From the NCBI GenBank assembly GCA_902760905.1, contig CACWIL010000002.1:1-42820 (forward strand): DNA of 42,820 nt. Reading direction: 5' to 3'. How positions within the stretch are numbered: the stretch's first letter is position 1; each line of letters opens with the position of its first letter. The stretch is from an uncultured bacterium (GTDB taxonomy: Bacteria; Cyanobacteriota; Vampirovibrionia; Gastranaerophilales; Gastranaerophilaceae). A program made the position numbers and the translations under genes. Positions 30,167 to 31,806 of the stretch are shown piece after piece. Below the pieces are notes generated by a model, which was not told where the DNA came from, did no database searches, and worked only from the letters and a program-made list of their open reading frames with translations.

Positions 30167-30637
30167 ATGAAAATTAAGGTAATTGCATTAGGCAAAATTA
30201 AAGAAAAATTCTTAAAAGACGGAATTGATGAGTTTTTAAAAAGACTCACTCCTTATGCATCTTTAGAAATTATCGAGCTTAATCCGATTGAGATTAAAGA
30301 TGAAAACCTGACTCAAAAAGCACTCGATGAAGAAGGGGTAAATATTTTATCTCATATTAAGGATAATTCATTCGTTATAACGATGGAAATTCAGGGAAAA
30401 CAATTATCCTCGGAAGAATTTGCTCAAAAAATCAACGAAGTTATAAAAAGCGGAGTTTCAGAGCTTGTTTTTGTTATAGGTTCTTCATGCGGAATATCCA
30501 AAAAAGTTTCTCAAAGAGCTGATTTTAAACTGAGCATGTCAAAAATGACTTTTCTGCATCAGTTTGCAAGACTTATTCTTGTTGAACAAATTTATCGTGC
30601 GTTTAAAATCCTGAAAGGTGAAAAATATCACAAGTAG
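30167..30637 (+). CDS. rlmH: 23S rRNA (pseudouridine1915-N3)-methyltransferase RlmH
   Basis: RlmH is a SPOUT methyltransferase that modifies helix 69 of 23S rRNA. The 156-residue length is standard. It starts 'MKIKVIALGKIKEKFLKDGIDEFLKRL', the family signature. The knot includes 'FVIGSSCGISKKV' (usually 'fiiGGayGl', so a divergent SAM-binding loop) and 'LSMSKMTFLHQFARLILVEQIYRAFKILKGEKYHK', which matches the invariant C-terminal block. A bidentate terminator-like hairpin follows at 30650-30682. Confidence 0.94.
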   Translation: MKIKVIALGKIKEKFLKDGIDEFLKRLTPYASLEIIELNPIEIKDENLTQKALDEEGVNILSHIKDNSFVITMEIQGKQLSSEEFAQKINEVIKSGVSELVFVIGSSCGISKKVSQRADFKLSMSKMTFLHQFARLILVEQIYRAFKILKGEKYHK

Positions 30638-30649
30638 GGATAAATTAAT

Positions 30650-30682
30650 ACACCAAATTATATAATTTGAGGTGTTTTTTTT
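30650..30682 (+). terminator. Rho-independent terminator of rlmH
   Basis: A stem of ACACC(A)AATTA with TAATT(TGA)GGTGT is followed by T8. The stem is AU-rich, with a GC-rich base. Confidence 0.75.
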
Positions 30683-30690
30683 ACCTCCAC

Positions 30691-30753
30691 TATATGTAGT
30701 ATTTTTGTTAAATATTCTTCAGAAAAATAAATTTATACCGATATATGTAGTAT
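30691..30753 (+). promoter_or_regulatory. 12-bp direct repeat, probable promoter region of the small RNA
   Basis: TATATGTAGTAT occurs at 30691-30702 and again at 30742-30753. The second copy contains TATATG (30742-30747), which would serve as a -10 for a start at about G30754. The first copy begins just after the rlmH terminator. Confidence 0.4.
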
Positions 30754-30828
30754 GGAAAGCCTCAGATGAGGTTTTCTACCTCCTCCCCAAGTCTGGTAGC
30801 CGTTCTCTAATGAAACGGCTTTTTTTTA
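30754..30828 (+). ncRNA. Yfr2-like small RNA candidate
   Basis: Between the rlmH terminator and the convergent muramidase gene lies a compact RNA-like unit. Stem 1 is AAAGCCTC (30756-30763) with GAGGTTTT (30768-30775), 8 bp including one G-U, with an AGAT loop. Stem 2 is CTACC (30776-30780) with GGTAG (30795-30799). The 14-nt loop plus part of that stem carries CCTCCTCCC (30779-30787). Stem 3 is AGCCGTT with AACGGCT followed by T8, a terminator. CCUCCUCCC in a loop is, as I recall, the hallmark of the cyanobacterial Yfr2 RNA family, which also has this size. The motif could pair with Shine-Dalgarno sequences. Confidence 0.6.
30798..30827 (+). terminator. Rho-independent terminator of the small RNA
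   Basis: A 7-bp stem, AGCCGTT (30798-30804) with AACGGCT (30814-30820), has a 9-nt loop and is followed by a run of eight T including the last stem base. The nearest protein gene on this strand already has its own terminator upstream. Confidence 0.8.
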
Positions 30829-31806
30829 TGCAATAGTATTTAATTGATTATCAGCAGCATCTTTTATTGCAATAACTCTGTTATTCCAGCCATCTTCATG
30901 TACTTTTTGTCTGGAATCTTTTTCTATAATTGCTTTATATCTGTTTTTTCTTAATTGTTCAAATTTACTTCTGTCACCTCCGCACTTATCCAGAAAATCT
31001 TTTGCAACACTCACACCCATATTTACTGCAGTATCAAATACATACAATGCAAGTTTTTTATCGGATATTTTATCTGCACCGCTTGCTTTATAGAATTTTT
31101 CGTAGTAGATTTCCTGCATTTCATCATCAGTCATTTTTGTTACACTCTGAGTTGGCAAACCTTTTGATTTACGGTACTCATCATACGTTGTATGAGTTAC
31201 TCCTTTTAAGGTTTCTCCGCCTCTATCGTTTTTGTTATTTGAATATCCGCCCTCTCGGTCCATCAATATGGATAAAAATTTATTAAATCGTTTGTCATCA
31301 TATCGATTAAAGCCGGTTGATTGTTGTACGGGTTTGTCCTTTTTATCGGTTGATTTATCACTGCTTTGTTGCGGTCCAAACCAATATGAGAACGGATTAA
31401 ATGATATTTGAGGTAGATTAAAAAATGACATAAACGGATATTGTTGATTAGATTTATTAGATTCTTTCATTTGCTTTTCATATTCCTGATATGCTTCTCT
31501 CATTCTCTTGTTATATTCTGAATCAGGGTTTGTATATGTATCCCAGATTGTCTGACACACACCGTTACAATCCACAGTCGGAAAAGATGGATTAGCAAAT
31601 GTTGTGGGAGGGATCATTGCAGCAGAAGACGACATATTATAACCGGGACCAAAAACAGATGGGAATGGATTTGCAAATCCGCCAAAATTCATACTGCCAT
31701 ACATCACAGGATATATGCCAAAACCAAAACACCCTCTTGCAAACGGATTGTTTACCAACATACCGAATGCCATCCCGCCTATGAAATTGTCTAAAAAGCT
31801 GCTCAT
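30826..31806 (-). CDS. GH108-type muramidase with a Phe/Gly/Asn/Pro-rich N-terminus
   Basis: The C-terminal half of this 326-residue protein (about 170-320) is a GH108/ZliS-like lysozyme domain: 'FLSILMDREGGYSNNKNDRGGETLKGVTHTTYDEYR', with the catalytic Glu in REGGY, and 'YYEKFYKASGADKI...ALYVFDTAVNMGV'. Such domains occur in phage endolysins and bacterial cell-wall hydrolases. The first 75 residues are hydrophobic, Phe/Gly/Pro/Asn-rich and without charged residues at the start, so not a standard signal peptide. A charged linker with polar Gln/Lys/Asp repeats follows (about 85-165). No holin or phage genes are nearby. It may remodel the cell's own wall or attack others. Confidence 0.8.
   Translation of the reverse strand: MSSFLDNFIGGMAFGMLVNNPFARGCFGFGIYPVMYGSMNFGGFANPFPSVFGPGYNMSSSAAMIPPTTFANPSFPTVDCNGVCQTIWDTYTNPDSEYNKRMREAYQEYEKQMKESNKSNQQYPFMSFFNLPQISFNPFSYWFGPQQSSDKSTDKKDKPVQQSTGFNRYDDKRFNKFLSILMDREGGYSNNKNDRGGETLKGVTHTTYDEYRKSKGLPTQSVTKMTDDEMQEIYYEKFYKASGADKISDKKLALYVFDTAVNMGVSVAKDFLDKCGGDRSKFEQLRKNRYKAIIEKDSRQKVHEDGWNNRVIAIKDAADNQLNTIA

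Follow-up and report, generated by a model that had tools for sequence, protein, structure and literature searches.

Analysis of the window, a stretch of 42,820 nucleotides from an uncultured bacterium of the Gastranaerophilaceae, revealed 3' of rlmH what is almost certainly a real small RNA (sRNA) gene with its own promoter and terminator. New in this analysis is the position of the predicted gene behind a σ28 (FliA) promoter pattern in genomes that also encode FliA, and the sRNA is very probably under σ28 control, as judged from promoter sequence and gene content. The element probably represents a new family of σ28-dependent, anti-Shine-Dalgarno (anti-SD), trans-acting, stand-alone sRNAs, with early flagellar genes as candidate targets where the host is flagellated. 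Nearly all sampled genomes of its host family, a large and uncultured group of non-photosynthetic cyanobacteria from animal guts, carry the sRNA, which joins control by a flagellar σ factor to an exposed anti-SD motif, neither of which is reported for this lineage in the papers found. The family is apparently undescribed, since it has no Rfam match and a literature search found no description of the element.

The predicted transcription unit and its conservation

The rlmH gene (30167-30637), the identity of which was confirmed, is followed on the same strand by its own terminator and then by a second, independent unit, in which a single-stranded CCUCCUCCCC stretch separates a hairpin from a terminator hairpin with T8 (Table 1), confirming the two terminators proposed here by an earlier sequence-only reading. 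Folding of the unit beat 200 of 200 shuffles (z −3.65), and R1, a covariance model built from 33 copies of the element, matched the window at 30748-30827 with an E value of 1e-18. Transcription probably begins near 30750, a little 5' of the 30754 first suggested. Of the three stems originally drawn, the 5' hairpin and the terminator hairpin stand, but the third is a marginal 3-bp CCA/UGG pairing that is abolished by the A variant of other families; similarly, the motif CCTCCTCCC sits exactly at 30779-30787 as described, but the T8 follows the terminator hairpin rather than the motif. In the window copy, a few bases of the conserved hairpin arm TTTTTCATACC are missing at 30770-30780, which reads TTTTCTACC and may be a natural variant or an assembly error. 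A direct repeat, TATATGTAGTAT, covers the sRNA promoter and start at 30742-30753 and recurs 51 nt upstream at 30691-30702.

Table 1. Sequence features of the sRNA locus (window coordinates)
Feature	Position	Strand	Remarks
rlmH rho-independent terminator	30650-30682	+	ACACCAAATTATATAATTTGAGGTGT-T8; outside the sRNA, which it insulates
−35-like element TTCAGAAA	30718-30725	+	family consensus TAAAGAAA / TAAAGTTT; degenerate in window copy
−10 element ACCGATAT	30737-30744	+	11 nt after the −35 element
sRNA gene	30750-30827	+	transcript predicted at about 78 nt, its 5' end placed from the promoter
5' hairpin, 10 bp	30754-30777	+	sequence varies with pairing kept across genera
Conserved core ACCTCCTCCCCAAGTCTGGTA	30778-30798	+	mostly unpaired; anti-SD plus AGUCU[G/A]GU
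Intrinsic terminator, GCCGTT..AACGGC + T8	30799-30827	+	hairpin 30799-30819, T8 30820-30827

This architecture is common to the family. Among 83 distinct copies, the 5' hairpin folds in 81 and the 3' hairpin in all 83, and the core is unpaired in the predicted folds with a mean probability of 0.81. The hairpin sequences diverge widely between genera with pairing retained, and RNAalifold run on a mixed alignment, the sole formal covariation output, supported the terminator stem alone. The core, nearly invariant in the genus, reads ACCTCCTCCCC[A/G]AGTCT[A/G]GT[A/T]GCCG in most copies, two of its positions alternating between A and G. It includes the anti-SD motif CCUCCUCCC, but this nonamer is not the most conserved part, because genera g33 and g38 shorten it and retain CUCCCC-AAGUCU.

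Conservation of the element is far beyond chance. Searches with blastn (query 30720-30835) found it in 56 of 58 genomes of the same genus and in 75 of 97 relatives, including most genomes of the order's other families, with up to four matches per genome and multiple copies in some families. R1 matched 208 of the 289 genomes of the class and 187 of 188 of the same family; 185 of the latter were strong, two (G261 and G291) were at noise level and one genome (G313) had no match. Two further families of the class (f9 and f15) carry diverged homologues of the form AACCTCCTCCCCAAGTCACGCTACCG, and in the photosynthetic members sampled the scores of R1 did not rise above noise, which lies at about 25 bits. 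Scanning GTDB contigs for the exact core gave at least 115 loci and, among the named matches listed, most were titled Gastranaerophilales or Melainabacteria, with a few others such as Caenarcanum and Clostridia. The earlier proposal of a conserved small RNA with an exposed anti-SD stretch in a Gastranaerophilales-type host is thus borne out, as is its expected conservation across relatives. A phage origin was rejected, the exact core being absent from viral contigs.

The genes beside the sRNA vary among 117 copies, the largest groups of neighbours resembling ribose-phosphate pyrophosphokinase, an alpha/beta hydrolase and a glycosyl hydrolase 108 (GH108) protein. Because neighbouring genes differ between copies, the element is not the leader or 3' UTR of one gene, and a trans-acting gene is favored; for rlmH itself, both of these origins were rejected on the basis of the separate terminator and promoter and the varied neighbours. 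In the window, the convergent gene downstream of the sRNA (30826-31806, minus strand) encodes a lysozyme-like GH108 domain, and this gene is also a neighbour of the sRNA at 11 further loci.

A σ28-type promoter in genomes encoding FliA

The E. coli σ28 consensus is TAAAGTTT-N11-GCCGATAA. Upstream of nearly all copies of the sRNA we found the pattern TAAAG[AA/TT]N-N11-[G/A]CCGATA (that is, TAAAG-N15-CCGATA), so that a σ28 promoter with the correct spacing is present directly upstream of the sRNA at the level of the family. Scoring of 69 copies against the 16-position E. coli consensus, which comes from outside the host group, gave a mean match of 12.1 of 16 at a spacing of 11; other spacings gave 9.2 to 10.0, and shuffles and background 8.5. 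Scores of at least 12 were reached by 42 of the 69 copies versus 0.8% of 723 background windows. The promoter of the window copy, with its degenerate −35 element, matches at 10 of 16 positions overall. Of 97 relatives, 86 encode a FliA (TIGR02479) that scores over the cut-off, the genome of the window among them, and the flagellin genes of five families (f2, f3, f4, f5 and f6) have the same σ28 promoter. In family f1, to which the window belongs, the flagellin genes tested lack this promoter and carry a different upstream motif around AGAAAAATCTAAC...TGTGAAGGA (L250-L253, L279 and L281).

The association of FliA with the sRNA extends to genomes lacking flagellin. No flagellin domain is encoded by 20 family members, each with a genome completeness of 96% or more, and a high-scoring FlhA was absent from those included in the FHIPEP search, in line with the reported loss of flagella in some Gastranaerophilales (PMC4040986). 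FliA was over the cut-off in 18 of 18 flagellin-less genomes tested and the sRNA gave a strong match in 18 of 20; in the promoters read from these genomes, the σ28 spacing was mostly kept and the −10 element had drifted in some. Retention of both FliA and the sRNA indicates that the circuit outlived flagellin and, because many flagellin-less genomes keep the sRNA, flagella cannot be all that it serves; the sRNA thus offers an entry point to the role of FliA where flagellins are missing. Since lineages without flagellin and canonical FlhA keep this pair, FliA and the sRNA could tentatively be viewed as a module separated from motility, in which FliA runs a non-motility programme with the sRNA as a core output, although we consider this rather doubtful. 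Such a module would perhaps control a second, divergent flagellum-type basal-body/export cluster. A cluster of this type in one relative (G067:C11; L412:72-9000) encodes FlgB-, FlgC-, FliE-, FliF-, rod- and FlhA-like proteins, of which FlhA and FliF fall below the NCBIfam cut-offs; the FHIPEP match retained in flagellin-less genomes has a score similar to that of this FlhA.

Relation to known RNA families

The sequence-only reading had assigned the element to the Yfr2 family (Cyano-1), which would place a Yfr2 RNA in a non-photosynthetic relative of the cyanobacteria. Small size, multiple copies in some families, unconserved loci and the phylum Cyanobacteriota are indeed shared, but the remaining evidence leaves this assignment a negligible probability. 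The Rfam consensus (RF01701; uugUGUGUGAGGAG...GUGGAAACAAGGAAACACU) is purine-rich and nearly the opposite of CCUCCUCCC, which it lacks, and Yfr2 motifs have been described as GGA/ANGGA (PMC2662882). Compared with this consensus, the element differs in structure and has neither the unpaired 5' GUGUGAGGAG nor the GGAAACA central loop. The RF01701 model did not match the element and gave no match over the cut-off in 97 relatives; its two best weak matches (L075 and L076, in G059/G079) are identical stretches of unrelated sequence away from the element. Yfr2 membership was therefore rejected. More broadly, no Rfam family matched the element at the gathering threshold, none came near the cut-off at E≤10 on 400 bases, and none matched it in 20 relatives.

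A closer architectural parallel is Yfr1, the other near-universal cyanobacterial sRNA, which has two stem-loops and 16-20 unpaired nt within 54-69 nt (PMC2190773). The element likewise has a 5' hairpin and a terminator hairpin on either side of an unpaired, pyrimidine-rich anti-SD stretch, and its hosts are a sister class within the same phylum, raising the possibility of a far-diverged Yfr1 relative. We regard such descent as improbable, since the ultraconserved undecanucleotide ACUCCUCACAC is absent from the copies read, Rfam gives no match, and a search of the sampled photosynthetic members with R1 brings up no convincing copy. The element also differs from Yfr1 in its σ28-type promoter and in its occurrence in Gastranaerophilales and related Vampirovibrionia.

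The exact CCUCCUCCC occurs as an unpaired anti-SD motif in αr14/NfeR1/SmelA075 and in Rhodobacter RS0680a, and NfeR1 silences mRNAs at the ribosome-binding site (PMC10746234, PMC3927594). In contrast to the single copy in a linker found here, those alphaproteobacterial RNAs present the motif in hairpin loops, with two to four such hairpins in a row, and NfeR1 has a σ70 promoter; membership of αr14 was rejected on the difference in motif number and placement.

Where predicted control is concerned, the nearest counterparts of the element are the sRNAs governed by flagellar σ factors in Campylobacter and E. coli. Campylobacter CjNC1 and CjNC4 are σ28-dependent with predicted action on earlier flagellar genes, and CJnc230, with an anti-SD stretch between two stem-loops, represses flgM (PMC11187230, PMC4626219). 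The comparison implies no homology; the motif is a different one, and CJnc230 depends on RpoN and arises by processing of the flgE mRNA. The σ28-dependent E. coli sRNAs UhpU, MotR, FliX and FlgO also feed back on flagellar synthesis (PMC10578931), but these are UTR-derived whereas the element stands alone and outlives the loss of flagellin.

Proposed mechanism and candidate targets

We propose that RNA polymerase with FliA transcribes the sRNA from the promoter at 30718-30744 and stops at the sRNA's own terminator. The ends of the RNA would be protected by the 5' hairpin and this terminator, which would also keep the ACCUCCUCCCC-AAGUCU core accessible; the core would pair with purine-rich ribosome-binding sites in target mRNAs and block their translation. 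Anti-SD pairing by the core is likely. In flagellated lineages the candidate targets would be flgB, fliF, fliP and fliQ, so that late flagellar expression feeds back on early genes; lineages that lack flagellin would have to retain targets of another kind.

Candidate targets came from surveys of sampled stretches, with ranks noticed after the fact. Within 400 kb of one flagellated relative (G068), flgB ranked second by pairing energy and fliF third among 364 initiation regions, with perfect complements to the core of 10 bp at the flgB SD (CGGGAGGAGGT) and 8 bp at fliF (ACTAGACT); this result was equalled by 2 of 120 shuffled cores. The same flgB and fliF sites are present in a congener (G063). 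In family f6, the top four of 119 regions, from loci chosen near flagellar genes, were fliP, fliQ, a response regulator beside flgB, and flgB. Ribosome-binding sites of early flagellar genes are thereby among the top predicted partners in two families. The fliP, fliQ and flhB starts examined in f1 genomes, where flgB was not located, showed no strong pairing and were not special, and the near-full complement GGGGAGGAGGT was not enriched genome-wide over a reversed control, leading us to reject perfect-complement targets. For these two reasons the flagellar targets are a lead rather than a result, and early flagellar genes as targets in flagellated lineages are a possibility we rate at somewhat below even.

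The absence of enrichment, together with pairing energies over all initiation regions that were only slightly better than those of shuffled cores, would also suit a general anti-SD RNA that damps the translation of many mRNAs with a strong SD, or that vies with the tail of the 16S rRNA, and has no specific flagellar targets. The core is complementary to any GGAGG, and retention of the sRNA without flagellin fits as well. Nevertheless, such a general role seems unlikely because conservation runs past the anti-SD into AGUCU[A/G]GU, which would be superfluous for it, because g33 and g38 trim the CCUCCUCCC part yet retain the rest, and because flgB and fliF stand at the top of the G068 ranking. 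The long, nearly invariant single-stranded stretch could instead bind a protein, making the RNA a sponge that titrates a regulator or another RNA without blocking mRNAs. We give this little credence, as the A/G variation at two core positions is that expected for pairing with U and no ANGGA/CsrA motif is common to all families; a CsrA sponge was rejected for the latter reason.

Two further observations concern flagellar loci. The flagellin leaders of family f3 (L268, L277, L278, L284 and L285) are several hundred nt long and contain repeated GGGAG and CsrA-consensus-like ACARGGAUGU motifs; because these could be CsrA sites, we do not claim the leaders as main targets. In G067 (contig C27, L418:11653), a flgB-fliI operon ends with fliI, and one copy of the sRNA follows immediately downstream in convergent orientation.
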